Source of the DNA: Halichondria panicea | Taxonomy: Eukaryota > Porifera > Demospongiae > Suberitida > Halichondriidae | NCBI RefSeq assembly: GCF_963675165.1 | Contig: NC_087377.1 | Span: 15,558,198-15,622,197 of the forward strand | Length of the DNA: 64,000 nt | Reading direction: 5' to 3' | Part shown: positions 9,262 through 63,001 of the stretch, in pieces | Position numbering within the stretch: position 1 is the stretch's first letter | Layout: each line of letters begins with the position of its first letter | The notes under the pieces: generated by a model | The model's input: only the letters and a program-made list of their open reading frames with translations | The model's database searches: none | Told to the model about the DNA's origin: nothing | Position numbers and translations under genes: made by a program

Positions 9262-12200
9262 CTAATTAGCACTTATAGACAAGAAATTAACAGTTTGCAT
9301 ATTAGTAAAGAAACTTGCCTGTCCTCCGGCTACAATGACCTCTCCACTAGGAAGTACTGAGCATGTGCAGCAATATCGTGCAGTAGGCAGGTCTCCCACT
9401 TTCACCCACCTCCTGGTGTCAGGCTGGTAGAGGTGGATCGATGAACTTGGGTTGGCTCTGTCTTCCTGTCCACCAACGGCTAATAGTGACCTCCCAATAC
9501 TGAGAAGACCTGACCACAAGAGTGGTACTTCCTGTAAGGTCTGCCAGAGAGTGGGTGTGACCAAGTTGGAAAGGGCCATTGCAATGAGTTCATTAAGGTC
9601 AACGTGGTGCACTGTCTTGGTTACCCCAGTGTGATCCACCCCTCCCATTAGGTAGAGGGTGTTTCCTATGAGAGTCGATTTCAGTCCTGATTGTGAGTTA
9701 GGTAGTGACTGAGCAATGTACCATTTTCTTGATGCCACGTCCAACACCTCCACAGAGGATGTACGTCCTTTGTCATCCTCTCCCCCAGCTACAATGATGT
9801 GGTTGTTGAAGGAAACAGCTGTTGAGTAATCACGAGCAATGTTCATTGGTGGGTACGGGTGAGTCCATTCCCCTGATTCAAACGCTGCAAGCTGATTGGT
9901 GTGTTTGCTGTTTCTTGGATCACGTCCTCCCACCAGCACTAGTCGATTAGCAAGTGAAGTCATAGCGAAGTACTTGGCAGTGTACTCTGGTAGTTTGGTC
10001 CATTGATCTTGCTCGAGCTTCATCACTGTACACGAGTCACGACCAATATACACCGTGTCACCGATAACAACACTCTGTACCGAGATTCCCATCTTCACTG
10101 GCATGTCTTTTCCTCTTCTCCATTTCAGAGTGAGTGGAGGTCTCAACTCTCTGGGAGAGGGACCCTGAATAATGAATGAGTGTAATTAGGATAGTGTCTA
10201 CTAACAAGCGAGTGTTACTTGTAGCAATAATTGCATGCACACTAAATCACTTTCTCTAATTAGCTTAAGAGGCCACGCCCACCAGTCTAATAGAATGTAC
10301 AGTACGATTATAAGAGATCAAAGCTTCTACTATAGCTCTGCAATAATATAATGGTGCATTTTGTCTCACCTGTCTCTGCTGTTGAATGATGGCGTCTCTC
10401 CTGACCAGCTCAGCATCTTTGTGCTCAATCTGTTCCCTGTGTGGCTGTACAGGGGAACGTTGGTGTAATCTTTCACAGACGTGAATATCATTAATGAAAA
10501 TTCTACAACAGAACGAGAACAAACAATAATTTCCGCTAAATGAAGTACATAATTATAGGCACACTCAAACAGATGTGTAGTTACGGCTTAACACATGAGA
10601 CAGCATCCATGCATGTTAAGGTACAATACTATTGTTGCTGTGGGAATCTCATTATCACACTACATGTATGCACCTTCTTGACTGGTTGAGGGTCCTTTGA
10701 CTCCCTCTTTGTTGCCTCCACTGGGTCCGAGCTTGTTGTCAGGTAAGCATCTGCAGTCAAGTTATTATCTGGTTGAGTGTCCTCCCGAGGTTGTATCTGT
10801 AGAGACTTCACTAGATGATCAATTTCTCTGGGTTGAAATTCAAACTGTTCTTGTTGGAGAGTGGTCACTTCTTCCAGTCCACAAACTTGTAGCCGATCGA
10901 TAGATGCTTGTGAATGAGTGTCTTTCTCAGATACTTGATGTAAAAGTTGATTTACTTGAGTATCCTTTGACTCCCTCTTTGTTGCCTCCACTGAACCAGA
11001 ACCTCTCGTTAAATAAGCATCTAGAAAATTGATACCAACATTAATAAAGACGAATATGATTTTTTTCGTTAGGGTTATAGTTATAGGGTTAGCGGAATTG
11101 TAAAACACATAATTATAATTAACTCACAGATGTCCCTGGCAGATGGTCTCCTCCTCATGTCTTCTTGCAAACAACTGTCGATAAGCTTCCTCAACCTGTG
11201 TGTGTGAGGGATCTGGGCAACATGAAATGATCGATCCTTGGCTGATTTGATCGTCTCCAGCTTGCAAACAATCTGCGTCACAATCACCCCATAGGAAAAC
11301 ACATCCAGGCTACTATCGTACTTCTCCTCTTCCAAGCGAATAGCCTCGAGAGGTAGATACCCCATACGGTGACCAACGGCCGTGAGGGTGTGGCTAAGCT
11401 TGGAGGGATCGTATAGCCGTGACATACCAAAGTCGGAAATTTTTGCAATAGGCACTGGCTGTGTTAGCTTCAGCAAGACATTATCGCCACAGAGGTCACG
11501 GTGGATAATCTGCTTGCTGTGAATGTAGGCCAGACCACAAGCCATGTCTTTGGAGAGGCTAATTTCACGTTCGCTAGTGAGGGACTCTTCATCAAGGCCA
11601 GAGAAATAGGATCTCAGATTGCAATCCATCATCTCAACAACGAGGATTGTACCACCTGATTTGGGGTGCTTGGCAGTCGACAAATACAGAACAACGTTTG
11701 GGTGCTGGAGTGACTGGAGATACTCACACTCACGATCAAATGCTTTGCTGGCTTCTTCACTTTTGCCGGTTGGGAAACCTGTCTGCATTTCTACAGCCTC
11801 GTAAATTAGAAGTTTGACTGCACAAATCTCGCCCCTGTAGCTGCCTTTGAAGACTGCTCCAAATGCACCTTTACCTAGTAGCTCGTCTAGGAAAACAATT
11901 AAATCATCATTGATCTTCTGGCGGTTTTGGTCAACTGTAAAAACATTGTGTGTGTGTGTGTATGAGTTTATGAGGGGGACCCGGGTGAATATTATAGTAG
12001 CTAGCTAATAAACTAAGCATCATGTATGAGATATGCATTCCTGTGCTGAACTAGTGCTTACCCTCTGACTTCACATCAGTAGGATTGCTTGCATCAGTAG
12101 ACTGTAGATGATCTTTCTCGATGGTATTAGCTATGTGAACGTGGCCCACAATGGGACTGGACAAAGCTTTGACAACATCTTCCCAGCTTCTCTCTTCACC

Positions 12201-12391
12201 TTTCAGCCATTCTTTCAAACCCTCACGATAGCATTCATCAGGATCGTCTCGCCATTTCGTACCAATACTGTCGATTGTATCAGAGGGTACGTCAAGAATA
12301 AGCAAGATGTTTCGCCACTTAATTCGAGCATCAAATGTGACGAGGTACAATTTCTTTAGATCTGCTATTGTGAGATAGTCAGACATCTTCT
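9262..12391 (-). CDS. Gene B: Death-domain / kinase / coiled-coil / Kelch protein
   Basis: Exons: 12391-12062 (Met 12386-12384, Death-like), 11934-11128 (kinase, 807 nt), 11020-10674 (linker, 347 nt), 10444-10370 (coiled coil) and 10164-9262 (Kelch, stop at 9262). The kinase keeps AVK, HRDLCGDN and DFG, and GYLPLEA replaces the usual APE/PPE. The linker exon is 270 nt longer than its paralogues. The extra 90 codons are in frame, hold a second linker copy (DAYLTTSSDPVEATK) and a glutamine-rich helical segment. The Kelch exon has six Gly-Gly blades, but the first blade has lost three residues (YIGRDS instead of YVGGG...). The Death-kinase intron is 127 nt with a TG run. No stop or frameshift seen, so it may be functional. 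Confidence 0.85.
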
Positions 12392-12479
12392 CTGTAAAAG
12401 ATAAGTATAAATGTATAGAGCCAAAAACTACATCTGAATCATGTACATTGTAATCAGTGCTGTCTGCACTACTCACTGA

Positions 12480-14420
12480 TTAAATCCAGAGACTTTATTC
12501 AGATCACAGCAAGTAGAAAAACAATACGTACCGAGATACGCCCCCTTTTCTGTATCAAGTGAATTAGCAAATCACGTTTTGATCCCACTATGGCAGACTA
12601 GCCAGCCAGCCATTCCCCCGAGTCCTGATCCTATATATTGTCAATGTGGGCCACAGTGACATAGCCAGGACTATGGAGAGAGACCATTGCTGAGGAGGTG
12701 GGAATGGCAAGTTCCTGGCCAATCAGATGATCCTACATGACGAAGCTGCTCGTAAAGATGCAAGTCTGATGACAAACTCAGGATGATGAGTGAGTGATAG
12801 TGTTGTTATTTAATAGCCTGATAGGATATACCTACTGCCAACATTTTCGTGTTCACTGTACCCAAGTATTGTATTTGGATGGTCCGGAAAAACTGTTGTA
12901 AACTAGTAAATAGTATGTACGTAGAGGAGCCTACGCACGCGAGGGACTGGCAAACTGCCTATCAGTCACTCGTCTCAGCTGCAACGAGCATTGCAGTCTA
13001 TCAGATTGCTCAACGTCATATTAGCCCTGTAATTGTAACCGCACTTACACTTCAGGGGATTCAGTACATAGTAGCTAAAGCAAAATTTAACCACATTATC
13101 TATAATGATATTCATGTTTGGTAGTGTCATAATTATGATCCATATATTCCGCTGAGATGAGTGACTGATAAGCAGTTGGCTAGTCGCTCACGCTACGCGC
13201 CAGTCTACCTTTTTTATACCCTCGAAATATACCCGCTATATACGGTAGCTTCTTTATAGTGCATAGTGTGCTTAAATCAATATGAAATTCATGCCCAAAT
13301 TGTGGAAAATAAGCGTAGACAATATTTAAATAACACGCATAGTTTAGTACATGCACGTGTACGTGTACTGAGTTTGCAATTCCTCAGGGCCATGTTCAAG
13401 CTGAACCCCAATGCAAAGACGTTAAGTTCAAGCTGAATGCCTAAGAGTCTCTCTATCTCTTTCCTTGGCAATCTGTTGTAGAAATTACAACAACGGTAAC
13501 GAATCGTTATGATGAATTAGATGAAGTTGTATGTGAGCTCCTCCCTGACAAACAAACTGTATTCTAGGTAACGGCCTTATCAGTCAAGTAGGCTAAAAAT
13601 CTGTGTCCTTTGATGTAAGCTTTGATGTCTCTTTGTGCATATGTAGTTACAAAAAAAAAAAAAAAAAAAAAAAGAAACCTTTGACTAGCTAGGAAGAGTA
13701 GCAGTAGTAGTAGGAAGAGTAGCAGTAGTAGTAGTAGCAGTGCAAGCAGGACTAGACTAGATTAAAAAGTTGGTGGAACGAATAACTGACCGTTTGGACG
13801 TCACCTGGCTGCCAGACTTTCATCTCGACTCTTCCCCCTGAGTAGCTGGCCTTTCTCTAAGCCACAAAACTGAGCAAGAAGCTGAAGAAGCAGCTAGACA
13901 GAGACATGTACCTAGCCTTGAGAATTGGGAGGCGTGGCTCAACTAGTTAGCCCAGCCCAGAGGAATTGTTACCGTGGGTACTGAACAACCGTAGAAGTAC
14001 AGCTACCCCTGGCTTTACTGAATTAACTAGCTGTGTCTGCTGTCTAGTTGGACCAGATTTAGCTAGATAATGGGGTAGAGAATAGTTGAGCGGTCCTGTG
14101 TGTAGCTTGAACTGTACTGGCTGGCAAGAATCTAGTAAGCACCCTATGCACTGATAACTCGTCAGAATGGAGGGTATGTTCTAGGGATCTGGACAGCTGT
14201 ACATCCAAAGGAGCCAGGGAGTGCCAATCATCTTCTCCCAGTCTCTGACACGCTAAACAAAACGAGCTAGAACTGGGAGTCCTAGAATTGCTAGCCGGAT
14301 CTAGACTAATAGAATGACATGGAGGCGTGGTGAGGCCGGATCCACACTAATTGATCGACCTAAAGACGCTCCTGTTCCAGATTTTCACGAATGGCAAGGA
14401 AAGGGCTATAGGGGTTTTAT
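12480..14420. other. Spacer between gene B and truncated plus-strand unit
   Basis: No supported gene. It holds a 5' UTR-like remnant of gene B (12,470-12,560), a poly(A) run at about 13,650-13,672, AGT/GAAGAG microsatellite at about 13,690-13,742 and assorted non-coding sequence. Open frames of 60-91 codons (for example 12,849-13,124) show no domain or splice logic. From about 14,425 the sequence becomes homologous to the 3' part of the plus-strand blocks (compare 7,455-7,600). Confidence 0.4.
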
Positions 14421-14813: not shown

Positions 14814-14932
14814 TTCCCGAGCCCCACCCCTCACTGTCTGACTCGGAAGAGGAGATAGACTTTGTATTCTGGGAGAAGGCGTCCACCCTACCCTCGGACA
14901 AGACCCCAACCAAGGACCTGAACTTGTTATGA
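14814..14932 (+). pseudogene. Acidic C-terminal exon, isolated copy
   Basis: Same exon as at 8955 (SLSDSEEEIDF, stop TGA at 14,930). Upstream exons are absent: the homologous tail begins only at about 14,425. The stretch ggtgtccctttatcat to gagccattttgcatttagccag (14,660-14,705) is shared with 57,110-57,140, so this truncated arrangement was itself duplicated to block 3. Confidence 0.45.
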
Positions 14933-15258: not shown

Positions 15259-18141
15259 TTAAGAGAAACAACTTATACAAAAGAAATTAACTGTTTGAAC
15301 ATAATTAACAAATAGGTTTGTCTGTCCTCCGGCTACAATAGCCTCTCCACTAGGAAGTACTGAGCATGTGCAGCTGTATCGTGCAGTAGGCAGGTCTCCC
15401 ACTTTCACCCACCTCCTGGTGTCAGGCTGGTAGAGGTGGATCGATGAACTTGGGTTGCGCCTGTCGTCCCGTCCACCAACGGCTAATAGTGACCTCCCAA
15501 TACTGAGAGGAGCTGAGAACACGAGTGGTACTTCCTGTAAGGTCTGCCAGAGAGTGGGTGTGTCCAGGTTGGAAAGGGCCTTTGAAATGAGTTCATCGAG
15601 GTCGACGTAGTGCACTGTCTTGGTTGGCTCAGTGTGATCCCACCCTCCCATTAGGTAGAGGTTGTTTCCTATGAGAGTCGATTTCAGTTCTGATCGTGGG
15701 TTAGGTAGTGACTGAGCAATGTACCATCTTCTTGATGCCACGTCCAACACCTCCACAGAGGAGGTACGTCCTTTATCATCATTCCCACCAGCTACAATGA
15801 TGTGGTTGTTGAAGGAGACAGCTGTTGAGTAATCACGAGCAATGTTCATTGGTGGGTACGGGTGAGTCCATTCCCCTGATTCAAACACCGCAAGGTGATT
15901 GGTAGGTTTGTTGTTTCTTGGATCACGTCCTCCCACCAGCACTAGTCGATTAGCGAGTGATGTCATAGCGAAGTACTTGGCAGTGTACTCTGGTAGTTTG
16001 GTCCATTGATCTTGCTCGAGTTTCATCACTGTACACCTGTCACGATCATTGTCTGCAAACCCTCCACCAACATACACCGTGTCACCGATAACAACACTCT
16101 GTACCGAGGTACCCATCTTGATTGGCATATCTTTTCCTCTTCTCCATTTCAGAGTGAGTGGAGGTCTCAACTCTCTGGGAGGGGGACCCTGAATAACGAA
16201 TGAGTGTAATTAGGATAGTGTCTACTAACAAGCGAGTGTTACTTGTAGCAATAATTGCATGCACACTAAATCACTTTCTCTAATTAGCGAGGCCACGCCC
16301 ACCAGTCTAATAGAATGTACAGTACGATTATAAGAGATCAAAGCTTCTACTATAGCTCTGCAATAATATAATAGTGCATTTTGTCTCACCTGTCTCTGCT
16401 GTTGAATGATGGCGTCTCTCCTGACCAGCTCAGCATCTTTGTTGGTGGAAATCTAAACAAAGACGTGAATATCATTAATAATATAATTCGTCTCACCTGT
16501 CTCTGCTGTTGAATGATGGCGTCTCTCCTGACCAGCTCAGCATCTTTGTGCTCAATCTGTTCACTATGTGTCTGTACAGGGGAACGTTGATGGAATATTT
16601 CACAGACGTGAATATCATTAATACAACAGAACGAGAACAAACAACAATTTCCGCTAAAGGAAGTACATAATTATAGGCACACTCAAACGGATGTGTAGTT
16701 ATGGCTTAACACATGAGACAGCATCCATGCATGTTAAGGTACAATACTATTGTTGCTGTGGGAATCTAATTATCACACTACATGTACGCACCTTCTTGAC
16801 TGGTTGAGTGTTCTTTGACTCCCTCTTTGTTACCTCCACTGGGTCCGAGCTTGTTGTCAGGTAAGCATCTAAAGTAAAAGAAAATAGATACCAACATGAA
16901 ATGATTTTTTCTGTTAGAGTTAGGAGTTAGTTGAAACGTAAAACACATTCTTATCATTGACTCACAGATGTCCCTGGCAGATGGTCTCCTCCTCATGTCT
17001 TCTTGCAAACAACTGTTGATAAGCTTTGTCAACCTGTGTGTGTGAGGTATCTGGGCAACATGGAATGATCGATCCTTGGCTGATTTGATCGTCTTCAGCT
17101 TGCAAACAATCTGCATCATAATCACCCCAAGAGAGAACACATCCAAGCTATTATCGTAATTATCCTTGTCCAATCGAATAGCCTCGAGAGGTAGATACCC
17201 CATACGGTGACCAATGGCTGTGAGGGTGTGGCTAAGCTTGGAGGGATCATATAGCCGTGACATGCCAAAGTCGGAAATCTTTGCGACAGGCACTGGTCGT
17301 GCAAGCTTCAGTAAGACGTTATCGCCACAGAGGTCACGGTGGATAATCTTCTTGCTATGAATGTAGGCCAGACCACAAGCTATGTCTTTAGAGAGGCTAA
17401 TTTCACATTCGCTAGTGAGGGACTCTTCATCAAGGCCAGAGAAATAGGATCTCAGATTGCAATCCATCAGCTCAACAACGAGGATTGTACTCCCTGATTT
17501 GGGGTGCTTGGCAGTCGACAAAAACTGAACAACGTTTGGGTGATGGAACGACTTGAGAAAATCACTCTCACGATCAATTGCATCGCTAGCTTCTTCGTTT
17601 TTGCCGACTGAAATACTTGCCTGCATCTCCATAGCATCGTGAAGCAGCACTTTGACTGCACATATCTCGCCCCTGTAGCTGCCTTTGAAGACTGCTCCAA
17701 ATGCACCTTTACCGAGACGCTCGTCTAGGAAAACAGTTAAATCCTCGTTGATCTTCTGGCGATCTTGGTCAACTGTAGAATGTTGTGTGGGGTAAAATAT
17801 TATGCCGAATTGGTGCTTACCTTGTAATTTAGGGTTGTTTGGACCAGTAGACTGTAGATGATCTCTTTCGATGGTCTGGGCTATGTGAACTTCACTCACG
17901 ATGGGACTTGACAAAGCCTCCACCATCTCTTTCCAGCTCTTCCCTCCTTCATTAAGCCATTTAATCAAACCCTCACGATAGCAGTCATCAGGATTGTTGC
18001 TCCATTCTTTCCCGATGCTGTGGATTGTAGCCTGGGGTACGTCAAGAATAAGCAAGATGTTTCGCCACTTGATTCGAGCATCAAACGTGACGAGATACAA
18101 TCTCTTTAGATCTGCTATTGTGAGATAGTCAGACATCTTCC
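15259..18141 (-). CDS. Gene C: Death-domain / kinase / double coiled-coil / Kelch protein
   Basis: Exons: 18141-17821 (Met 18136-18134), 17772-16966 (kinase), 16868-16792 (linker), 16571-16497 (coiled coil 1), 16452-16390 (coiled coil 2) and 16188-15259 (Kelch, stop 15259). The Death-kinase intron is 48 nt. The two coiled-coil exons are 75 and 63 nt, both phase 0 to phase 0, each ending KDAELVRRDAIIQQQRQ; the second uses a new acceptor tttgtttag. All six Kelch blades are intact. Kinase residues AVK, HRDLCGDN and DFG present. No disruption found: the best preserved gene of the array along with F. Its promoter region is heavily invaded by transposons. Confidence 0.87.
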
Positions 18142-29725: not shown

Positions 29726-32595
29726 CTAATTAGCACTTATAGAGAAGAAATCAACAGTTTGAATAATAGTATAAGTGTTGGTCTGTCCTCCGGCTACAAT
29801 GACCTCTCCACTAGGAAGTACTGAGCATGTGCAGCGGTATCGTGCAGTAGGCAGGTCTCCCACTTTCACCCACCTCCTGGTGTCAGGCTGGTAGAGGTGG
29901 ATCGATGAACTTGGGTTGGCTCTGTCGTCCCATCCACCAACGGCTAATAGTGACCTCCCAATACTGAGAGGAGCTGAGAACTTGAGTGGTACTTCTTGTA
30001 AAGTCTGCCAGAGAGTGGGTGTGTTCAGGTTGGAAAGGGCCTTTGCATTGAGTTCATTGAGGTCGACGTGGTGCACTGTCTTGGTTACCTCAGTGTGATC
30101 GAACCCTCCCATTAGGTAGAGGGTGTTTCCTATGAGAGTCGATTTCAGTGAATATCGTGGGTTAGGTAGTGACTGAGCAATGTACCATCTTCTTGATGCC
30201 ACGTCCAACACCTCCACAGAGGAGGTGGTACGTCTTTTATCATCACGCCCACCAGCTACAATGATGTGGTTGTTGAAGGAGACAGCTGTTGAGGAATGAC
30301 GAGCAATGTTCATTGGTGGGTACGGGTGAGTCCATTCCCCTGACACTAACACTGCAAGTTGATTGGTGGGTTTGTTGTTTCTTGATTCACATCCTCCCAC
30401 CAGCACTAGTTGATTAGCGAGTGATGTCATAGCGAACCAATAGGCAGTGTACTGTGGTAGTTTGATCCATTCATCTTGCTCGAGCTTCATCACTGTACAC
30501 CTGTCACAATCATTGTCTGGACTACCTCCACCAACATACACCGTGTCACTGATAACAGCACTCTGTACCGTGGTGCTCATCTTAATTGGCATGCCTTTTC
30601 CTCTTCTCCATTTCAGAGTGAGTGGAGGTCTCAACTCTCTGGGAGGGGGACCCTGAATAATGAATGAGTGTAATTAGGATAGTGTCTACTAACAAGCGAG
30701 TGTTACTTGTAGCATGCACACTAAATCACTTTCTCTAATTAGCTTAAGAGGCCACGCCCACCAGTCTAATAGAATGTACAGTACGATTATAAGAGATCAA
30801 AGCTTCTACTATAGCTCTGTAATAATAATTATAATGGTGCATTTCTCTGCTGTTGAATGATTGCGTCTCTCCTGACCAGCTCAGCATCTTTGTGCTTAAT
30901 CTGTTCCCTGTGTGTCTGTACAGGGGAACTTTGGTGGAAATTTTGTCACAGACGTGAATATCATTAGTGGAAATTCTACAACAGAACGAGAACAAGCAAC
31001 ACTTTCTGCTAAAGGAAGTACATAATTATAGGCACACTCAAACGGATGTGTAGTTACGGCTTAACACATGAGACAGCATCCATGCATGTTAAGGTACAAT
31101 ACTATTGCTGCTGTGGGAATCTCATTATCACACTACATGTACGCACCTTCTTGACTGGTTGAGTGTCCTTTGACTCCCTCTTTGTTGCCTCCACTGGGTC
31201 TGAGCTTGTTATGAGGTCAGCATCTAAAAAGTAAAAGAAAATCGATACCAACATGAAATGATTTTTTCTGTTAGAGCTAGGAGTTAGTGGAAACGTAAAA
31301 CACATAATTATAATTAACTCACAGATGTCCGTGGCAGACGGTCTCCTCGTCATGTCTTCTTGCAAACAACTGTCGATAAGCTTCCTCAACTTGTGTGTGT
31401 GAGGGATCTGGGCAACATGGAATGATCGATCCTTGGCTGATTTGATCGTCTCCAGCTTGCAAACAATCTGCATCATAATCGCCCCAAGAGAGAACACATC
31501 CAAGCTATTATCGTAATTATCCTTGTCCAATCGAATAGCTTCAAGAGGTAGATACCCCATACGGTGACCAACGGCCGTGAGGGTGTGGCTAAGCATGGAG
31601 GGATCATATAGCCGTGACATGCCAAAGTCGGAAATCTTTGCGACAGGCACTGGTCGTGTAAGCTTCAGCAAAACGTTATCGCCACAGAGGTCACGGTGGA
31701 TAATCTTCTTGCTATGAATGTAGGCCAGACCACAAGCTATGTCTTTAGAGAGGCTAATTTCACATTCGCTAGTGAGGGACTCTTTATCAAGGCCAGAGAA
31801 ATAGGATCTCAGATTGCAATCCATCAGCTCAACAATGAGGATTGTACTCCCTGATTTAGGGTGCTTAGCAGTCAACAAAAACTGAACAACATTTGGGTGC
31901 TGGAACGACTTGAGAAAATCACTCTCACGATCAATTGCATCGCTAGCTTGTTCGTTTTTGCCGATTGGAATACTTGCCTGCATCTCCATAGCATCGTGAA
32001 GCAGCACTTTGACTGCACATATCTCGCCCCTGTAGCTGCCTTTGAAGACTGCTCCAAATGCACCTTTACCGAGAAGTTCGTCTAAGAAAACAGTCAAATC
32101 ATCGTTGATCTTCTGGCGGTTTTGGTCAACTGTAGAACATTGTGTGTGTGTGTGTGTGTGTGTGTGTGCATATTTATGTGTGTGGGTGTGGGGGGATATA
32201 ACTATTATAGTAGTTAAGCATCATGTATGTATACATTCCTGTGCTGAACTAGTGCTTACCCTCTGACTTCACATCAGTAGGATTGCTTGCATCAGTAGAC
32301 TGTAGATGATCTTTCTCGATGGTCCTGGCTATGTGAACGTGGCCCACAATGGGACTGGACAATGCTTGGACAACATCTTCCCAGCGTCTCTCTTCACCTT
32401 TCAGCCATTCTTTCAAACCCTCACGATAGCATTCTTCAGGATTGTCTCGCCATTTCGTACCAATACTATCGATGGTATCCGAGGGTACATCAAGAATAAG
32501 CAAGATGTTTCGCCACTTAATTCGAGCATCAAACGTGACGAGGTACAATTTCTTTAGATCTGCTATTGTGAGATAGTCAGACATCTTCTGAGTCT
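29726..32595 (-). CDS. Gene D: Death-domain / kinase / Kelch protein with broken coiled-coil exon
   Basis: Exons: 32595-32260 (Met 32584-32582), 32129-31323 (kinase), 31223-31147 (linker), coiled-coil exon from 30915, and 30652-29726 (Kelch, stop 29726). The donor of the coiled-coil exon is missing: the sequence goes from CAGCAGAGA directly to AATGCACC, a 12-nt loss relative to paralogues. Splicing must skip this exon (linker to Kelch would stay in phase 0) or fail. Kinase motifs AVK, HRDLCGDN and DFG are intact. The propeller has all six blades and is the most divergent of the set at the loop positions (for example STTVQS, VGGCES, MGGFDH, ARYRCT). The Death-kinase intron holds a (TG)n run. 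Confidence 0.8.
32135..32170. repeat. (TG)n microsatellite in gene D intron 1
   Basis: TG run shortly after the kinase-exon acceptor. Homologous runs are in gene B (about 11,945-11,962) and gene F (46,044-46,088, the longest). Genes A, C and G have a 48-nt intron with only TGTGTGG at this place. Confidence 0.7.
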
Positions 32596-39394: not shown

Positions 39395-39666
39395 GACTGT
39401 TAAATATTATTTTGTCTGTTTTTGTACTATTTTCTGGCAATGTAATTATGTATGTACCACTTCATGTCATCATAATAACTATAATTATATGCGATAAAAT
39501 CTGTTGCAACTTAATATTCTCAACATGATAAAAAGAATATCAATATCGTTATAAACTCATCGCACAATTAAAGAGAAACAATTAACAAAATAACTTATAG
39601 AGAAGAAATCAACAGTTTTAATATAATTTAACAGTTTTGTCCGAATCGCTACCACCCTCTTCCATC

Positions 39667-40070
39667 GGTACAGTAGGTGGGGGTTGAGAAGGGAAAATAT
39701 CATCTGCTGGATGTCGAAAAAAGAAGTCGGATGGAGCCTCTGAGGCGTCAGGTACAGTAGGTGGGGGTTGAGAAGGGAAAATATCATCTGCTGGATGTCG
39801 AAAAAAGAAGTCGGATGGAGCCTCTGAGGCGTCAGGTACAGTAGGTGGGGGTTCAGAAGGGAAAATATCATCTGCTGGATGTCGAAAAAAGAAGTCGGAT
39901 GGAGCCTCTGAGGCGCCAGGTACAGTAGGTGGGGGTTGAGAAGGGAAAATATCATCTGCTGGATGTCGAAAAAAGAAGTCGGATGGAGCCTCTGAGGCGT
40001 CAGGTACAGTAGGTGGGGGTTCAGAAGGAAAAATATCATCTGCTGGATGTCGAAAAAAGAAGTCGGATGG
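39667..40070 (-). repeat. Five tandem 84-bp coding repeats (28 residues each)
   Basis: GGTACAGTAGGTGGGGG recurs at 39667, 39751, 39835, 39919 and 40003, exactly 84 bases apart. Each encodes PSDFFFRHPADDIFPS followed by E/Q-PPPTVP and D/G-ASEA. Units differ at only two or three bases, so the array is young or homogenised. The frame is open throughout. Phe-rich plus proline-rich; no known domain recognised. Confidence 0.85.
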
Positions 40071-41593
40071 GCCGTCATAATTTCGTGGCTCCTCAAATTT
40101 CTCTTTTTTCTTTTCTGCCAGAACATCCACCACAAATGGTCTCTGTGAGGAGAAGTCATACTCTAATAGTACTTCATCAGTTTTGGCTGCCTCCCCCACT
40201 CTTATGAGAACTTCGTTTTCCTCCAACTCTAGAGGGTCACTGGCAGCTTCTACTAGTTTTTTAATCACTTCCCTGATCAAAGCGTGAACTTTCTCTTGTA
40301 GCTTCTTATCCTCTGCAATGTCTCTTCCTCCTCTCCATTTCAGAGTGAGTGGAGGTCTCAACTCTCTGGGAGGGGGACCCTGAATAATGAATGAGTGTAA
40401 TTAGGATAGTGTCTACTAACAAGCGAGTGTTACTTGTAGCAATAATTGCATGCACACTAAATCACTTTCTCTAATTAGCTTAAGAGGCCACGCCCACCAG
40501 TCTAATAGAATGTACAGTACGATTATAAGAGATCAAAGCTTCTACTATAGCTCTGCAATAATATAATGGTGTATTTTCTCTCACCTGTCTCTGCTGTTGA
40601 ATGATGGCGTCTCTCCTGACCAGCTCAGCATCCTTGTGCCCAATCTGCTCCCTGTGAGCCTGTACAGGGGAACGTTGGTGGAAATCTAAAACACAGGTGA
40701 ATATCATTAGTGGAAATTCTACAACAGAACGAGAACAAACAACAATTTCCCCTAAAGGAAGTACATAATTATAGGCACACTCAAACGGAGGTGTATTTAG
40801 CGGCTTAACATGATTTATACAATAGCATCAATTGTTGAGGTATAATACTATTGTTGGAATCTCATCGACACACTTAGCTACATGTACGCAAACAAATATT
40901 ATTATTGTAGTATAATACTAGCGTATAGGAGTGTGTGCATTTGGTGACTACTATAATACCTGTAAGAGAGCGGCCCTCTCAACTAGAGCAGCCTCTCTCT
41001 GGGAAATGAGATCAGTGATCCTTGACTCCAGTTCACTGAGTTGTCTGTCCTTGTCAGCAATCACACCATCTTTGGTGGCAGCATTAGCACGGACATTATT
41101 CAATATCTGTATAAAAAAGGTTATCAACATGTTAGCTCGTTGAACAAAATAGCTTATAATAAACAAAGTAAACTGGTTCTGCTGACCTGTTGCTGTCTAG
41201 CAAGCTGAGTATCTTAATTGTCCGCTACTTCCTCATATTTTTGTACCAGAAGTGCATCTTTTTCATCTAGTTGATCGTCTTTTTGTGCCAGTAGTGCAAC
41301 GCTCTGTTCAAGTTGATCGTCTTTCTCAGTAAGTTGCTCATCTTTTCTCTCTAGTATCCTGTCCTTCTGGACCACCTCTCTCTGAGAACAGAGTACAGCA
41401 TGCAGTGTCAGACCTAGTCTGGCCACGCCCTCCCATACTTCGTATATGGTCGGGTGAACTTGCAATGAACAGTTCGTGCAGACACCCCAAGATTTTCTTG
41501 GGGTGTGAAACCGCTTGTCAAGTGCCTTGTGGGCCGTTGTGGCCTGTTGTGTAAACTGTTACGTAAGCTATTGCATCACGAAAAAGTAGCTAG

Positions 41594-42003: not shown

Positions 42004-42746
42004 AGCAGCAACCATTAAAATAAGAACCATAAGAAATATTGTCTCGGAAAGGAGGGGAGGCAATTAAAGTAGGATCGTCTATACATAACCTTCTACTGAC
42101 AATGTAAAATGTTTCTGTTGTAGAGGTAGCAGTAAGTGCGTGAACACCGACACATTGTCTGGAATGAGGCTCCTTAAATCTCCAATCTCGCGACTCGAAA
42201 ATCATCTCCCCAGGTTTTAACACAATGGGCTTCATCAACTACTACTGCAACGAGATTCTTTATATACGGTGGTGACAGAAGCATATTTCGAAAAATACCC
42301 TTCGCTAATATGCTCTCTGGGGAGATGAACACCGACTGAGCTTCTCCTTTCAGTACTCTGTTAATAGCACTACGGTCTGTCTGAGCTTCTCCAACGTATT
42401 CCACTGTCAATCCTCCAGCTGCATACTTTTTTTGTTGATCCATCATCAGCGAAGTGAGGGGACTAATACAAAGTACAATGCTTCCAGATGTTCCTGCAAA
42501 ACAGAAAAAGGCGTATATATAGGTACACTCATACAGCAATTTTAGTTCACCTTTCAATTGGTCAAAGGCCATAGGTAATGCAGCAAAGATTACTGACTTT
42601 CCATAGCCGGTTGGCAGTGACACAAATGTGTCCTTTCCTCCAATGATTGAATACATTGCTTTCATTTGCTCTGGCTTTAAATAATGGATCCCAATTGCTC
42701 TAGCACTCTCAATTATCACGTCTTGCATCTTCATGTGTCTTTCCAT
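42004..42746 (-). pseudogene. RecQ-type DNA helicase N-terminal fragment
   Basis: Exons 42746-42551 and 42493 downwards, separated by a 57-nt GT-AG intron. Motifs in order: LKPEQMKAM (motif 0), LPTGYGKS (Walker A), CISPLTSLMMDQ (motif Ia), FISPESIL, VVDEAHC (DEAH box), TWGDDFR. After DDFR the frame is broken twice: GDLRSLIPDNV is in one frame and HALTATSTTE (motif III) in a third. Only the first RecA domain is present. RecQ helicases unwind DNA 3' to 5'; this copy is dead. It is inside gene E, so was probably inserted as mobile or retrocopied DNA. Confidence 0.7.
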
Positions 42747-43365
42747 AGTCTTGCACTATAATTATGTACTAAATCTTGAAAGTCATAAACTAAATGTTCC
42801 ACACTGATTTTTGGCCACACCTGTACCCATTCAGTGATTGCATGAATTTCACCACACAGTGGGTACACCCACCACTACACCTACACTATTTGGTTAACAC
42901 CCAATTATCACTACTAGGTTATCTAACCGCGGCACTTAGGGCCTGACACGAGTGGTGATAGTGAAGTTCACCAGACTCTTGCAAAGAGGCTGGAAATCGA
43001 GACTATGTCAGACCCTTGCACCCACTAGCTCACTGGACTGGAATCACCTGTAGAGCCTCTATCCTCTTCTCCTTTGACCTGAGGGTCCTGGCAGTCTTCA
43101 CTCATGCAATGTCCAGCTGGAGCAGTCCTCCGTCCATCTCCCTCCCCACCTCCTCCAGAGACGAGAGGAGCTCAGCGGTGGTCGGTCTTCTCTCTGGGGT
43201 GTTGGCCAGACACTCCCTCACCAGACCAAACAGAGGTGTACAATCATGTACGACCCCCCCCCCCACACACACACACCTTTAGGCCTACTATGCTGCTAAG
43301 AGAGGGGCCTCACGTAAACTGGCCACTCAGTGTGACTATGACCATGTGACTCTTTAACCCCTCAG

Positions 43366-43629: not shown

Positions 43630-46494
43630 TTAGCACTTATAAGAGAAGAAATCAACAGTTTGAATATAATCAACTAAATTTGTCTGTCCTCCGGCTACAA
43701 TGACCTCTCCACTAGGAAGTACTGAGCATGTGCAGCAGTATCGTGCAGTAGGCAGGTCTCCCACTTTCACCCACCTCCTGGTGTCAGGCTGGTAGAGGTG
43801 GATCGATGAACTTGGGTTGAATCTGTCGTCCCGTCCACCAACGGCTAATAGTGACCTCCCATTACTGAGAGAAGCTGACCACACGAGTGGTACTTCTTGT
43901 AAGGTTTGCCAGAGAGTGGATGTGTCCAGGTTGGAAAGGGCCTTTGCAATAAGTTCATTGAGGTCGACGTGGTGCACTGTCTTGATTGGCCTCCCAGTGC
44001 GATCCATCCCTCCCATTAGGTAGAGGGTGTTTCCTATGAGAGTTGATTTCAGTCCTGATCGTGGGTTAGGTAGTGACTGAGCAATGTACCATCTTCTTGA
44101 TGCTACGTCCAACACCTCCACAGAGGAGGTACGTCCTTTATCATCACGCCCACCAGCTACAATGATGTGGTTGTTGAAGGAGACAGCTGTTGAGGAATCA
44201 CGAGCAATGTTCATTGGTGGGTACGGGTGAGTCCATTCTACTGATTCAAACACTGCAAGTTGATTGGTGGGTTTGTTGTTTCTTGGATCACGTCCTCCCA
44301 CCAGCACTAGTCGATTAGCGAGTGATGTCATAGCAAAGTGCTTGGCAGTGTACTCCGGTAGTTTGGTCCATTGATCTTGCTCGAGCTTCATCACTGTACA
44401 CATGTCACGATCATCGACTGCACCACCACCACCAACATACACCGTGTCACCAATAACAACACTCTGTACCGAGTAGCCCATCTTGATTGGCATGTCTTTC
44501 CCTCTTCTCCATTTCAGAGTGAGTGGAGGTCTCGACTCTCTGGGAGGGGGACCCTGAATAATGAATGAGTGTAATTAGGATAGTGTCTACTAACAAGCGA
44601 GTGTTAGCAATAATTGCATGCACACTAAATCACTTTCTCTAATTAGCTTAAGAGGCCACACCCACCAGTCTAATAGTACGATTATAAGAGATCAAAGCTT
44701 CTACTATAGCTCTGCAATAATATAATGGTGCATTTCATCTCACCTGTCTCTGCTGTTGAATGATGGCGTCTCTCCTGACCAGCTCAGCATCTTTGTGCTT
44801 AATCTGTTCCCTGTGTGTCTGTGCAGGGGAACGTTGGTGGAAATTTTGTCACAGACGTGAATATCATTAGTGGAAATTCTACAACAGAACGAGAACAAGC
44901 AACAATTTCTGCTAAAGGAAGTACATAATTATAGGCACACTCAAACGGATGTGTAGTTACGGCTTAACACATGAGACAGCATCCATGCATGTTAAGGTAC
45001 AATACTATTGTTGCTGTGGGAATCTCATTATCACACTACATGTAAGCACCTTCTTGACTGGTTGAGTGTCCTTTGACTCCCTCTTTGTTGCTTCCACTGG
45101 GTCTGAGCTTGTTGTGAGGTCAGCATCTAAAAAGTAAAAGAAAATCGATACCAACATGAAATGATTTTTTCTGTTAGAGCTAGGAGTTAGTGGAAACGTA
45201 AAACACATAATTATAATTAACTCACAGATGTCCCTGGCAGATGGTCTCCTCCTCATGTCTTCTTGCAAACAACTGTCGATAAGCTTCCTCAACCTGTGTG
45301 TGTGAGGGATTTGGGCAACATGGAATGATCGATCTTCCACAGATTTGATCATCTTCAGCTTGCAAACAACCTGCATCATAATCGCCCCAAGAGAGAACAC
45401 ATCCAAGCTATTATCGTAATTATCCTTGTCCAATCGAATAGCCTCGAGAGGTAGATACCCCATACGGTGACCAATGGCTGTGAGGGTGTGGCTAAGCTTG
45501 GAGGGATCGTATAGCCGTGACATGCCAAAGTCGGATATCTTTGCGACAGGCACTGATCGTGTAAGCTTCAGCAAGACGTTATCACCACAGAGGTCACGAT
45601 GGATAATCTGCTTGCTGTGAATGTAGGCCAGACCACAAGCCATGTCTTTGGAGAGGCTAATTTCACATTCGCTAGTGAGGGACTCTTCATCAAGGCCGGA
45701 GAAATAGGATCTCAGATTGCAATCCATCAGCTCAACAACGAGGATTGTACCACCTGATTTGGGGTGCTTGGCAGTCGACAAAAACTGAACAACGTTTGGG
45801 TGCTGGAACGACTTGAGAAAATCACTCTCACGATCAATTGCATTGCTAGCTTCTTCGTCTTTGCAGACTGAAATACTTGCCTGCATCTCCATAGCGTCGT
45901 GAAGCAGCACTTTGACTGCACATATCTCGCCCCTGTAGCTGCCTTTGAAGACTGCTCCAAATGCACCTTTACCTAGAGGTTCGTCTAAGAAAACAGTCAA
46001 ATCATCGTTGATCTTCTGGCGGTTTTGGTCAACTGTAGAACATTGTGTGTGTGTGTGTGTGTGTGTGTGTGAGTGTGTGTGTGTGTGTGGGGGGGGTGAA
46101 TATTATAGCAGCTAACGAACTAAGCATTATGACTGTATGATTCCTGTGCTGAACTAGTGCTTACCCTCTGACTTCACATCAGTAGGATTGCTTGCATCAG
46201 TAGACTGTAGATGATCTTTCTCAATGGTCCTGGCTATGTGAACTTCACTCACGATGGGACTTGACAAAGCCTCCACCATCTCTTTCCAGCTTTTCCCTCC
46301 TTCATTAAGCCATTTAATCAAACCCTCACGATAGCAGTCATCAGGATTGTTGCTCCATTCTTTCCCAATGCTGTGGATTGTAGCCTGGGGTACGTCAAGA
46401 ATAAGCAAGATGTTTCGCCACTTAATTCGAGCATCAAACGTGACGAGATACAATCTCTTTAGATCTGCTATTGTGAGATAGTCCGACATCTTCC
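43630..46494 (-). CDS. Gene F: Death-domain / kinase / coiled-coil / Kelch protein (mosaic)
   Basis: Exons: 46494-46165 (Met 46489-46487), 46032-45226 (kinase), 45126-45050 (linker), 44818-44744 (coiled coil) and 44553-43630 (Kelch, stop 43630). All splice sites and phases agree and no stop is seen. The Death exon begins like genes A/C/G (SWKEMVEALSSPIVSEVH) but ends like B/D (RTIEKDHLQSTDASNPTDVK), and the intron that follows is of the B/D type with a long TG run. Kinase motifs AVK, HRDLCGDN and DFG are intact. Kelch blades are complete; the fourth has an extra residue (GMDRTGRPIK). Confidence 0.87.
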
Positions 46495-58005: not shown

Positions 58006-58429
58006 TTATGCGGCCATTTTTCAGCCCGGCCAAGTGTTGAGGAGACAAGAAGAGGCACTGAGAATGGAGGTAGAGGTACAGAGTACATTAGCTGGAAAAT
58101 GCATTTGTGTCATACTTTGTAGAGTCCCTTAAAGTCATTCAAGGTCAGCTATAGTGTGTCCTATTTGAAGGTGTGCAATGTACAATCATTACGACCTCCC
58201 CCCCCACAAACACACACCTTTAGGCCTACTATGCTGCTAAAAAAGAGAGGGGCCTCACGTAAACTGGCCACTCAGTGTGACTATGATCATGTGACTCTTT
58301 AACCCCTCAGTTCCCGAGCCCCACCCCTCACTGTCTGACTCGGAAGAGGAGATAGACTTTGTATTCTGGGAGAAGGCGTCCACCCTACCCTCGGACAAGA
58401 CACCAACCAAGGACCTGAACTTGTTATGA
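58006..58429 (+). CDS. 3' exons of plus-strand gene, block 3
   Basis: Exon 58006-58075 (FQPGQVLRRQEEALR) and terminal acidic exon 58311-58429 (SLSDSEEEIDFVFWEK, stop TGA 58427). Both are intact, but the block's earlier exons are broken, so a full product is unlikely. Confidence 0.4.
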
Positions 58430-58482
58430 GACTGTTACATATTATTTTGTCTGTTTTTATACTATTTTCTGGGAATGTAATT

Positions 58483-59160
58483 ATCAGTAGGTTTTACATA
58501 GGATTGGCAGTGGGTTTGCCCGTGTTTAGCAATTATTTTGACTCATGTTCAAACTGTTCTATCTCTGCAGGGAAAGGCCACATCAAGGAACTGGCTAGAC
58601 AGATAGTTTATTTAGCCTTTTCTCTCTTTGTATCTCTTATTTCATAATCCATGAATGTTTTAAATGTATGAATATTGTCATTTTAAAAATTGCACTATTT
58701 CGACGTTTCACCGCTCGTTGTCTGACTGAGTAAGTAAGTAAGTAAGTTTCTTGCCCAGCATTTACTCCAAGTACAGCCATCTCCAGGATATTCTGCACAG
58801 GGTTTCCAAACGACTACAACCTGGATTACAAAGCGCTTCTTCAGATTTGCGATTGCTTCCATGAGGCAGATGACCTCTCAGTCTCTATTTCTCTTACCTA
58901 GACAGTTCTGCCATCTTTAATGACTCAGCAATTGTGTTGTGACCAAAATAGATAGGCGTGGCTAAGAAACCGTGCACCTAAAATCAGCTTTTCCAGAGCC
59001 TGAGGTGTTGCTTTTCTTCACAGTGTTCAGCTTTAGCTCCCTTTCTCTGACAAGCATGCTATATGCACTGGCTATATATCATGCTCTTAAAATGGCTGTC
59101 ATTTAATACTGATTCACAAATTCAACATATCAAGCAATATTACTCATTACTATATAATTA
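58483..59160. other. Unique insertion 3' of block 3
   Basis: In other units the sequence ggcaatgtaattatgtatgtaccacttcatg is continuous; here about 1.7 kb separates its halves (58,480 to about 60,218). This first part has a GTAA tetranucleotide run (58,731-58,746) and no supported gene. The rest is the CAGGGGCG element and a foldback. Confidence 0.4.
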
Positions 59161-59165
59161 TTAGT

Positions 59166-59563
59166 CAGGGGCGTAGGGAGGGGGAGGGCTTTGGGGGCTG
59201 GAGCCCCCCCTTTCTCTGCAAAAACTACACTAAGAGCTCCACCTTCTCTGATGAGTCTTCAGCCTGGGAATTACTGGTATAGATTAGTGGCAGACAAACA
59301 GCATGTCCAAGAGCTAGCTATACTATACTAGTAACTTTGATTCTTTAGTGCAACAGAACTAAGCTAGCTAGCTACGGCTAGCTAGCTAGCTTTAGCAGTA
59401 TTATTAATTGAAGCAAGGTGTGGCTATTTCTTGCACATGCGCAATGAGTCATTAATTAGGGGGTGTGGCTCCTGGTCACCGGAATTTTCGGCGCTCTGCG
59501 CCAAGTAGTTTCTGGCGCGAACAGCTCAGCCCCCCCTTCCTCAAATTCCTGCCTACGCCCCTG
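59166..59563. mobile_element. CAGGGGCG element, copy 2
   Basis: 398 bp with ends CAGGGGCGTAGG and CCTACGCCCCTG, flanked by TTAGT (59161-59165, 59564-59568). Internally it has TTTTCGGCGCTCTGCGC (59,485-59,501), the counterpart of the motif in copy 1. Same family as 49867-50461 with 5-bp target duplications. Confidence 0.75.
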
Positions 59564-59672
59564 TTAGTCCAGAGATATTCCAGAAGATATCTGATTAGTC
59601 CTGTCTTCTCTTCTTGAACTTCTGTACTGCCTCTTGACGTTCCACTTGTACTGAAAAAGAAAGGGAATCTGA

Positions 59673-60215
59673 CTAGAAAAACATTCGCAATGTGAAAAAT
59701 TGCTAGGATTGGCCAGGGGAACCACAAAAAAGCGTGGAAACAAGAAATCCGACGAGAGCATAACTCCAATCCGTTACAACGTCATGAACATGTACAATAC
59801 ATAGTATATAGACTGTGTTCCAGATCCATCTACCAGCTTCCATCCACCACATCAATCATTCCATGCAGGTCACCAGTACGGTCCGTGCATGTTACTACGC
59901 ATGCCTATGACTGTGTGTACCTGTGCTCAACACTGCATGTATTAGGAACATCAATTCACCACAAATCATCATGATTATATGCCCGCACATTCCAAAATGG
60001 ATGTATAATAAAAGGATTGGTCGGTCATCACCCCACCAGTAAAAATTGTGTATTTATATTATATTGGCCGGGAAAACATGGAAAACTACCAGTACATGTG
60101 ATTGACGTTGTAACGGATTGGAGTTATGCTCTCGTCGGATTTCTTGTTTCCACGCTTTTTTGTGGTTCCCCTGGCCAATCCTAGCAATTTTTCACATTGC
60201 AAATGTTTTTCTAGT
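59673..60215. mobile_element. Foldback element with 124-bp arms
   Basis: 59673-59795 and 60092-60215 are inverted repeats with few mismatches (ctagaaaaacatt...ggattgg...gtaacg). The loop is about 300 bases. Transcribed, it would form a long hairpin. Its arms explain the mirrored open frames seen on both strands here. Confidence 0.7.
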
Positions 60216-60331
60216 ATGTATATACCACTTCATGTCATCATAATAACTATAATTATATGCGATAAAATTCTGTTGCAACTCAACATGATAAAAAGAATAT
60301 CAATAAACTCATCGCACAATTAACAAAATAA

Positions 60332-63001
60332 CTAATTAGCACTTATAGAGAAGAAATCAACAGTTTGAATAAACATAAATTTTGACCATCCTCCGGCTAC
60401 AATGACCTCTCCACTAGGAAGTACTGAGCATGTGCAGAAGTATCGTGCAGTAGGCAGGTCTCCCACTTTCACCCACCTCCTGGTGTCAGGCTGGTAGAGG
60501 TGGATCGATAAATTTGGGTTGTCTCTGTCGTCCCGTCCACCAATGGCTAATAGTGACCTCCCAATACTGAGAGGAGCTGACAACACGAGTGGTACTTCCT
60601 GTAAGGTCTGCCAGACAGTGGGTGTGTCCAGGTTGGAAAGGGCCTTTGCAACGAGTTCATCGAGGTCGACGTGATGCACTGTCTTGGTTGCCCCAGTGTG
60701 ATCGTACCCTCCCATTAGGTAGAGGATGTTTCCTATGAGAGTCGATTTCAGTATTGATTGTGGGTTAGGTAGTGACTGAGCAATGTACCATCTTCTTGAT
60801 GCCACGTCCAACACCTCCACAGAGGAGGAGGCACGTCTTTTCTCATCATGCCCACCAGCTACAATGATGTGGTTGTTGAAGGAGACAGCTGTTGAGGAAT
60901 CACGAGCAATGTTCATTGGTAGGTACGGGTAAGTCCATTCCCCTGACTCAAACACTGCAAGCTGATTGGTGCGTTTGTTATTTCTTGGATCACTTCCTCC
61001 CACCAGCACTAGTCGATTAGCGAGTGATGTCATAGCGAAGTACTTGGCAGTGTACTCTGGTAGTTTGGTCCATTGATCTTGCTCCAGCTTCATCACTGTA
61101 CAGCTATTACAATCATTGTGTGCATCACCTCCACCAACATACACTGCGTCACCGATAACAACACTCTGTACCGTGGTACCCATCTGGATTGGCATGTCTT
61201 TTCCTCTTCTCCATTTCAGAGTGAGTGGAGGTCTCAACTCTCTGGGAGGGGGACCCTGAATAATGAATGAGTGTAATTAGGATAGTGTCTACTAACAAGC
61301 GAGTGTTACTTGTAGCAATAATTGCATGCACACTAAATCACTTTCTCTAGTTAGCTTAAGAGGCCACGCCCACCAGTCTAATAGTAAGAGATCAAAGCTT
61401 CTACTATATAGCTCTGCAATAATATGTACAGGGGAACGTTGGTGGAAATTTTTCACAGACGTGAATATCATAATGAAAATTCTACAATAGAACGAGAACA
61501 AGCAACAATTTCCGCTAAAGGAAGTACATAATTATAGGCACACTCAAACGGATGTGTAGTTACGGCTTAACACATGAGACAGCATCCATGCATGTTAAGG
61601 TACAATACTATTGTTGCTGTGGGAATCTCATTATCACACTACATGTACGCACCTTCTTGACTGGTTGAGTGTCCTTTGACTCCTTCTTTGTTGCCTCCAC
61701 TGAACCAGAACCTCTCGTCAAGTAAACATCTAGAAAATCGATACCAACATTAATAAAGACGAGTGTGATTTTTTTCGTTAGGGTTATAGTTATAGGGTTA
61801 GCGGAATTGTATTATAATAACTCACAGATGTCCCTGGCAGATGGTCTCCTCCTCATGTCTTCCTGCAAACAACTGTCGATAAGCTTCCTCAACGTGTGTG
61901 TGTGAGGGATCTGGGCAACATGGAATGATCGATCCTTGGCTGATTTGATCGTCTCCAGCTTGCATACAATCTGCGTCACAATCACCCCATAGGAAAACAC
62001 ATCCAGGCTGCTATCGTACTTCTCCTCTTCCAATCGAATAGCCTCGAGAGGTAGATACCCCATACGGTGACCAATGGCTGTGAGGGTGTGGCTAAGCTTG
62101 GAGGAATCATATAGCCGTGACATGCCAAAATCGGAAATCTTTGCGACAGGCAATGGTCGTGTAAGTTTCAATAAGACGTTGTCGCCACAGAGGTCACGGT
62201 GGATAATCTGCTTGCTGTGAATGTAGGCCAGACCACAAGCCATGTCTTTGGAGAGGCTAATTTCACATTCGCTAGTGAGGGACTCTTCATCAAGGCCAGA
62301 GAAATAGGATCTCAGATTGCAATCCATCAGCTCAACAACGAGGATTGTACTCCCTGATTTGGGGTGCTTGGCAGTCGACAATAACTGAACAACATTTGGG
62401 TGCTGGAACGACTTGAGAAAATCACTCTCACGATCAATTGCATCGCTAGCTTCTTCGTTTTTGCCGACTGAAATACTTGCCTGCATCTCCATAGCATCAT
62501 GAAGCAGCACTTTGACTGCACATATCTCGCCCCTGTAGCTGCCTTTGAAGACTGCTCCAAATGCACCTTTACCGAGACGCTCGTCTAGGAAAACAGTTAA
62601 ATCATCGTTGATCTTCTGGCGATCTTGGTCAACTGTAGAATATTGTGTGGGGTAAAATATTATGACAAATTGGTGCTTACCCTGTAATTTAGGGTTGTTT
62701 GGACCAGTAGACTGTAGATGATCTCTTTCGATGGTCTGGGCTATGTGAACTTCACTCACAATGGGACTTGACAAAGCCTCCACCATCTCTTTCCAGCTCT
62801 TCCCTCCTTCATTAAGCCATTTAATCAAACCCTCATGATAGCAGTCATCAGGATTGTTGCTCCATTCTTTCCCGATGCTGTGGATTGTAGCTGAGGGTAC
62901 GTCAAGAATAAGCAAGATGTTTCGTCACTTAATTCGAGCATCAAACGTGACGAGATACAATCTCTTTAGATCTGCTATTGTGAGATAGTCAGACATCTTC
63001 C
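60332..63001 (-). pseudogene. Gene G: Death / kinase / Kelch gene with nonsense mutation and lost coiled-coil exon
   Basis: Exons: about 63001-62681 (Met 62996-62994), 62632-61826 (kinase), 61729-61653 (linker) and 61255-60332 (Kelch, stop 60332). In the Death exon TGG (Trp of IKWRNI) is TGA at 62927-62925. The coiled-coil exon is deleted: sequence runs from gcaataat to gtacagggg at about 61,424. Linker to Kelch stays in phase 0, so skipping is harmless to the frame. Kinase (HRDLCGDN, DFG) and six Kelch blades are otherwise intact; reinitiation downstream at 62915 (MLILDVP) could give a protein lacking the start of the Death domain. Intron 1 is the 48-nt type. Confidence 0.8.

Follow-up and report, generated by a model that had tools for sequence, protein, structure and literature searches.

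The stretch of DNA analyzed here (the window) covers 64,000 nucleotides of the sponge Halichondria panicea (contig 1, positions 15,558,198-15,622,197) and carries an array of related genes in which an exon encoding a Kelch propeller lies downstream of a Death-type exon, a kinase exon and small linker exons. Judged from sequence and structure modeling, this Death-kinase-Kelch array probably encodes cytoplasmic recognition receptors that form an inherited repertoire and sense through a diversified Kelch domain. There is perhaps an even chance that it constitutes an undescribed intracellular recognition system, in which well over 100 inherited Death-kinase receptors would carry their specificity on one face of the Kelch propeller, with about 25 positions assorting almost freely through frequent exchange and nearly each copy having a face of its own. 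Diversifying selection together with exchange between copies appears to be the best reading of what shapes this face, and the family may best be filed as a hypervariable propeller receptor repertoire on a Death-kinase chain.

The analysis draws on one genome throughout (131.5 Mb in 39 contigs), in which a 26-base word of the Kelch exon was found at 173 places and a kinase word at 110 places, with up to three mismatches allowed; the reversed control of each word gave none. Among the matches listed (100 of the 173 Kelch-word places), one set lies within 1.9 Mb of contig 1, where minus-strand members reach as far as about 16.13 Mb and plus-strand members begin near 16.71 Mb. The others are a few copies at 10.98-11.02 Mb, which form a small group, a contig 6 cluster, a set on the short contig 28, and singletons elsewhere. 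In total 152 Kelch exons were read, which are not paired one to one with these places; 138 of them are open, and the 14 that are not were left out before diversity was measured. Among the open exons there are 129 different DNA sequences, which encode 127 different proteins when compared over the aligned columns; the 129 sequences, on which the diversity measures are based, display 115 distinct faces. On contig 1, between 15.48 and 17.39 Mb, the members seen form two facing arms, and identical exons occur in both (L104/L105 and L130/L131). Two of the four Kelch exons on contig 28 (94,770 bases) pair with copies of the contig 6 cluster (0.49-0.80 Mb) at one and six differences (L122/L120 and L079/L071, respectively), and contig 28 may be the other haplotype of that cluster.

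The Kelch exon is recognized by Pfam as Kelch_1 (E 1.8e-27), and an AlphaFold2 model of the exon of gene D, built from five window exons, is a six-bladed propeller (predicted local distance difference test, pLDDT, 84.6; predicted template modeling score, pTM, 0.85). Foldseek with this model matched KLHL20, KLHL12, KEAP1 and other Kelch chains; the closest folds include those of KLHL20, KLHL12 and KLHL3, Kelch domains of substrate adaptors whose structures were determined with peptides. With the blades aligned on the residue that follows Gly-Gly (offset 0) and entropy averaged across blades over the 129 distinct exons, the mean was 2.74 bits at offset 0, 2.27 at -17, 1.70 at -16 and 0.8-2.0 at +1 to +7, and 0.10-0.65 bits at all other offsets from -26 to +15. 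The diversity peaks correspond to the DA loop (-17/-16) and the BC loop (0 to +7) and are the same in each blade. An earlier reading made from the letters of the window alone (the sequence-only reading) had claimed that the same places vary in every blade, which is borne out by the six post-Gly-Gly sites, with 2.74 bits versus 0.48 for the rest of the core (0/20000 permutations); the six true sites entered the offset scan and the KEAP1-spaced test given below, and a false site at position 196 was excluded. The same reading had likened the two positions per blade to the ligand contacts of KEAP1, and the two peaks of the family, 17 or 16 residues apart, are in register with the KEAP1 contact pairs S363/R380, S508/Y525 and S555/Y572, each 17 residues apart.

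In four-stranded propellers the DA and BC loops lie on the same face. On the six-blade model, 36 of the 38 sites above 1.2 bits are located in DA or BC loops, one in the AB/CD loops and one at a strand edge, and all sites above 2 bits (22/22) are in DA or BC loops (Fisher p 1.5e-6 for face loops versus opposite-face loops), which agrees with the predicted clustering on one face. Face was assigned by loop topology rather than by height above the propeller plane; the loop limits follow the DSSP string, with some manual placement around blade 4, and the count covers model residues 20-295. The propeller scaffold is thus conserved, and the diversity of residues on the DA/BC face comes close to saturation. 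A diversified surface with a putative binding role is supported by these patterns. At alignment position 190, the post-Gly-Gly residue of blade 4, an aromatic residue (Y, W, F) is present in 107 of 128 sequences, more than at any other of the 19 hypervariable sites tabulated; it is conjectured that this position may mark a fixed anchor for a peptide-like ligand.

For selection on the face, tree-free measures were used in place of PAML and FUBAR; a single tree would be invalid because recombination is too frequent. The ratio of replacement to silent diversity (piN/piS) is 2.68 in the DA loop (site bootstrap 1.56-6.23) and 1.81 in the BC loop (1.38-2.40), compared with 0.28-0.34 in strands and 0.53 in the CD loop together with strand D. 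For the AB loops, in which replacement and silent rates are both low, it is 0.93 (0.46-2.58). At single hypervariable codons the per-site replacement diversity is 5-10 times the silent background of 0.0705, in line with the earlier description of the changes as mostly amino-acid changing. At 12 KEAP1-spaced sites (offsets 0 and -17; 24 bases), a set chosen after the offset scan had shown the same offsets, heterozygosity at codon bases 1 and 2 is 0.517 versus 0.061 at 120 four-fold silent sites (p 1.3e-13), and the controls for this test gave 0.023 for the AB loop, 0.015 for Gly-Gly and 0.025 for strand B. It could be argued that constraint is relaxed or the genes are decaying, and that the face loops vary since nothing holds them, as loops generally tolerate change and 14 of the 152 exons are not open. 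However, neutral sites cannot exceed the silent rate, which the single face codons do, the opposite-face AB loops have little diversity and 138 exons are open; this explanation, to which almost no weight can be given, was rejected on these grounds, and the KEAP1-spaced bases (0.517 against 0.061 at silent sites and 0.023 in the AB loop) contradict it unless mutation is base-precise.

Pairs of related copies and the kinase exons provide further comparisons. In 27 independent pairs with at most 45 differences, the per-site values are 0.072 for face replacement, 0.018 for background silent and 0.008 for background replacement changes, and in 25 pairs with fewer than three background silent changes, which are not independent of each other, the face ratio is 6.1. 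The kinase control comprises 21 of 32 genes with flanks (two were missed at the orientation step and nine are without a readable kinase frame), and five of its 21 rows are short. The kinase exons of these genes have a piN/piS of 0.38 and no codon above 2 bits (0/270), and the Kelch exons of the same genes have 14 such codons among 289. At silent sites the kinase is more diverse (0.175) than the Kelch exon (0.060), and the Kelch scaffold is therefore the more uniform of the two.

The Kelch exon appears to have been reassorted among copies in short pieces. In 108 of the 129 distinct exons (copies more than 20 bases apart), the excess of mutual information between face sites is small once the sites are more than about 8 codons apart, and silent r2 stays at 0.01-0.03 whatever the distance. 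All four combinations are found in 201 of 465 silent-site pairs, part of which recurrent mutation could account for. Face replacement is 0.25 (0.251) per site at a silent divergence of 0.026, and the face difference is 78-82% in nine of ten comparisons within and between clusters, with silent differences of 0.04-0.14. Across 13 genes, linkage in the kinase decays from 0.37 to 0.09, that in the Kelch exon is flat at 0.11-0.14, and kinase distances correlate with Kelch-background distances at 0.32 (0.20 without one close pair). A donor search in five close pairs matched only some runs of at least three differences to an identical segment in another copy; as donor matches were few, the short tracts are inferred from the lack of linkage. 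Whole genes have been copied as well: one pair of loci shows no difference across 3,945 bases, and another two loci match a third at 99.8% identity across 3.95 kb, though some of these copies may be assembly effects.

The third bases of face codons bear on the source of the diversity. At several face sites the third base is near-fixed (C in 128/129 at site 34 and T in 119/126 at site 51) and bases 1 and 2 are near-random. Third-base diversity at 16 sites was compared with simulations of ordinary mutation plus selection under four settings (omega 20 or 1000, kappa 2 or 4), and at seven of them (34, 51, 53, 58, 126, 252, 280) it is below all four, for instance 0.02 versus 0.13-0.25 at site 34. 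Both observations speak for site-directed germline mutagenesis, by a system resembling diversity-generating retroelements or by an editing enzyme, acting on bases 1 and 2 of face codons. Such a process is nevertheless highly unlikely: the summed third-base diversity (observed 3.56; simulated 2.63-3.86) is matched by ordinary mutation with strong selection, six of the 16 sites (95, 102, 143, 190, 232, 248) are above all four settings, and ten very recent duplicate pairs, given below, have no face excess. When the comparison is restricted to a single four-fold box, 12.1% of pairs have different third bases at face codons versus 6.1% at conserved codons, and bases 1 and 2 of face codons differ in 54.5% of pairs. 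A directed mutator seems not to be required for the face diversity.

The sequence-only reading rested on the Kelch exons of genes B, C, D, F and G, and the residue series that it quoted are present in these exons, except that exon G has QMG-T rather than KM[GS]-T and AIGG-R rather than VGG-R. Twelve codons were tallied, namely the nine quoted (four post-Gly-Gly and five pre-strand) plus the three that correspond to them elsewhere in the propeller, in other blades, at alignment positions 51, 297 and 126; all 12 have an amino-acid change among the five exons, and none has silent changes only. Among the other DA/BC-loop codons, 32 of 48 have an amino-acid change (two silent-only), and outside these loops 39 of 237 (silent-only 25). 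The statement that the propellers differ almost only at the ligand face is therefore right as to a strong enrichment, with 44 of 83 changed codons in the 60 DA/BC codons, but overstated in view of the 39 of 237 changed elsewhere. The gene parts in the window are as follows.

1..107, minus strand: Kelch exon of gene A, start only (the rest lies left of the window; locus L047)
811..1617, minus strand: kinase exon of gene A, upper limit set from the 807-base length of other copies
1700..1981, minus strand: Death-type exon of gene A, lower limit approximate
9262..10164, minus strand: Kelch exon of gene B, open, without seven residues of the blade-1 BC loop
11128..11934, minus strand: kinase exon of gene B, upper limit set from the 807-base length of other copies
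12062..12386, minus strand: Death-type exon of gene B, of the second subtype, sharing 73% identity with the gene C exon
15259..16188, minus strand: Kelch exon of gene C
16966..17772, minus strand: kinase exon of gene C (Pkinase E 1.2e-37)
17822..18136, minus strand: Death-type exon of gene C, lower limit approximate
29726..30652, minus strand: Kelch exon of gene D, modeled with AlphaFold2 as six-bladed (pLDDT 84.6)
31323..32129, minus strand: kinase exon of gene D (Pkinase E 7.7e-37)
32260..32584, minus strand: Death-type exon of gene D, of the second subtype, sharing 72% identity with the gene C exon
43630..44553, minus strand: Kelch exon of gene F
44769..44791, minus strand: small heptad-like linker exon of gene F, core only (AELVRRDAIIQQQRQ), a coiled coil by eye, exon limits not set
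45226..46032, minus strand: kinase exon of gene F
46165..46489, minus strand: Death-type exon of gene F
60332..61255, minus strand: Kelch exon of gene G
61826..62632, minus strand: kinase exon of gene G
62681..62996, minus strand: Death-type exon of gene G, with an in-frame stop at 62925-62927, left out of the FADD-matching profile

Gene B stays in frame despite its seven-residue gap, which includes one post-Gly-Gly site. The AELVRRDAIIQQQRQ linker core is also found at 338-360, 10395-10417, 16415-16437, 16522-16544 and 30866-30888, and was not found in gene G.

For the remainder of the chain, the kinase retains HRDLxxxN and DFG in all 21 genes of the control, the glycine loop in 15 and the lysine motif in 16, and its catalytic loop reads HRDLCGDN. 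Tyrosine kinase (TK) and tyrosine kinase-like (TKL) types lead its matches, with EGFR, CERK1 and B-Raf as the best solved structures, a placement by matches and not by a kinase tree. A profile of five window Death-type exons gave 12 matches, 11 of which are FADD (best E 0.0037). The claim of a Death domain and a kinase in one chain can thus be retained for the kinase, by Pfam, and for an N-terminal Death-type domain, by the FADD profile match, whereas Pfam itself gave no Death domain. No signal peptide or membrane segment was seen by eye (no predictor was run), and on this ground a cytoplasmic location is inferred. In the five family open reading frames scanned with Pfam (linker exons lay outside the scan), the Kelch families match and no WD40 is listed, and there was no match to BTB, BACK or F-box, nor to NACHT, NB-ARC or LRR.

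The absence of BTB and F-box matches in that scan bears on the possibility that the family regulates endogenous or selfish-element proteins, with a face that tracks fast-evolving internal targets such as transposon proteins. Such tracking has been proposed for the domains by which large F-box and MATH families bind their substrates, and the peptide-bound substrate-adaptor Kelch domains among the closest folds (KLHL20, KLHL12, KLHL3) lend this possibility some support. It is nonetheless rather unlikely, as the Kelch domain is accompanied by a kinase and a Death-type domain and, in the reading frames scanned, by neither BTB nor F-box. Under the favored reading as a receptor repertoire, the variable face would bind variable protein or peptide ligands from non-self, be it microbes, symbionts or other individuals, and ligand binding would release or cluster the receptor by way of the Death domain and of small helices in the linker, after which signaling by the TK/TKL-like kinase might lead to defense or cell death, as in IRAK or RIPK proteins. 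Ordinary mutation would supply the diversity, diversifying (balancing) selection would maintain it on the face, and gene conversion over short tracts or unequal exchange would redistribute it between copies and also hold the scaffold uniform.

A number of observations weigh against such a repertoire with a freely assorting face. Regarding the chain, Pfam reported no Death domain up to E 10, the AlphaFold2 model of Death-type domain plus kinase failed (pLDDT 30), 14 of the 152 Kelch exons have frame breaks or missing ends, and the Death exon of gene G has an in-frame stop, so that this gene is not intact as assembled, although its Kelch and kinase exons are open. Regarding selection, at the lower cut of 1.2 bits the kinase has 15 variable codons among 270 versus 21 among 289 in the Kelch exon, the two being close because the kinases fall into few subtypes. 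The ten very recent duplicate pairs (at most six differences) are without a face excess, having four replacement and one silent change at the face, and four silent and ten replacement changes outside it. Regarding exchange, linkage persists in two of the 71 pairs of face sites separated by 41-80 codons, face replacement climbs from 0.25 to 0.35 as silent divergence reaches 0.166, and the face difference within the contig 6 cluster is 63%. In the 13 genes, moreover, Kelch-background and face distances correlate at 0.61 (0.52 without one close pair), from which it follows that the face and the background of the Kelch exon are not wholly uncoupled.

The closest likeness to a known system appears to be with the NWD/HNWD genes of the fungus Podospora anserina (HET-D, HET-E; NACHT-WD40), for which two reports describe positive selection at d-a and b-c loop positions of WD40 blades and concerted evolution within and between genes (PMC1805685; PMC4986451). 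Both families have an intracellular beta-propeller sensor with a near-identical scaffold, diversifying selection on the DA and BC loops (here 36/38 sites and tree-free measures) and exchange between paralogs (here near linkage equilibrium and four-gamete pairs). They differ in that the sponge propeller is Kelch and not WD40 and the chain is Death-kinase and not NACHT, and in that the Podospora family comprises 10 genes whose internal repeats are exchanged as units, whereas here well over 100 copies have six distinct blades and exchange runs along the exon. By analogy, the family may work like the NWD receptors without belonging to them, since neither NACHT nor WD40 is present in the exons scanned.

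This likeness also raises the question of allorecognition or self/non-self fusion, in which the face would tell apart conspecific individuals, as in Podospora HET-D/HET-E, and not microbes. The same loop positions and the concerted pattern, as described for the fungal family (PMC1805685), are compatible with such a role, and the identical and near-identical copies indicate recent turnover of the array. Sequence cannot separate this role from pathogen or symbiont recognition, but more than 100 copies would exceed the usual need of allorecognition, and the role is assigned a low probability.

The receptor repertoire favored here also resembles other known systems in part. KEAP1/KLHL adaptors share the six-bladed Kelch fold and a DA/BC ligand face at the same spacing, but they have BTB and BACK domains, for which there was no match in the scan, and are conserved genes rather than a diversified array. 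IRAK/Pelle and RIPK kinases likewise combine a Death-type domain with a TK/TKL-like kinase in one chain; the HRDLCGDN catalytic loop and the best structure matches of the sponge kinase set it apart, and neither family is known to have a Kelch sensor. Animal and plant NLR repertoires form large arrays whose diversified sensor repeats accompany a death-fold or signaling domain, and the Death-kinase-Kelch array is comparable in each of these respects but differs in that NACHT, NB-ARC and LRR gave no match in the five reading frames scanned. Large diversified intracellular receptor repertoires are known mainly from LRR sensors. In fungi, WD40, ANK and TPR sensors are also used, according to one report (PMC4986451). 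Among the matches listed in the open-access literature, by title and abstract opening and with subscription papers outside the coverage, no paper on a Death-kinase-Kelch architecture was found, and Kelch looks like a fold not known for use in an inherited repertoire of recognition receptors. If the reading is true, evolution would have arrived independently at a Kelch repertoire coupled to a Death-kinase chain, with variation placed on the two loops of each blade that the fungal propellers also use, and the family would reveal what surfaces are favored when recognition is open-ended. With more than 100 faces on a single scaffold, the copies of the family amount to a natural library, and one can ask directly what ligands select them.

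Several further observations concern the surroundings and margins of the family. On the minus strand of the window at 39618-40400, a Kelch-exon start (GPPPRELRPPLTLKWR) leads into an unrelated frame with five 28-residue tandem repeats (APSDFFFRHPADDIFPS...), and no copy of the kinase repeat is present between this element and the next Kelch exon upstream; the element is taken to be a chimeric or decayed family member. A DEAD-box helicase fragment (Pfam DEAD E 1.4e-15) is located among the family members at 42174-42755, also on the minus strand. Two solitary kinase loci were noted, one without a Kelch exon within the 3.3 kb read (L165) and the other with a broken one (L166). At C9:2570213-2570782 (L164), a cathepsin L-like exon has SSW where others have SCW at the catalytic Cys, and its His region is altered; it is probably an inactive paralog. 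In eight of 30 genes examined (L014, L019, L023, L024, L029, L033, L034, L036), mostly those ending in FCISD, a remnant of another family 3' end lies within about 200 bases downstream of the gene's own Kelch stop, and the 3' tails of the family seem to have been exchanged or inserted.

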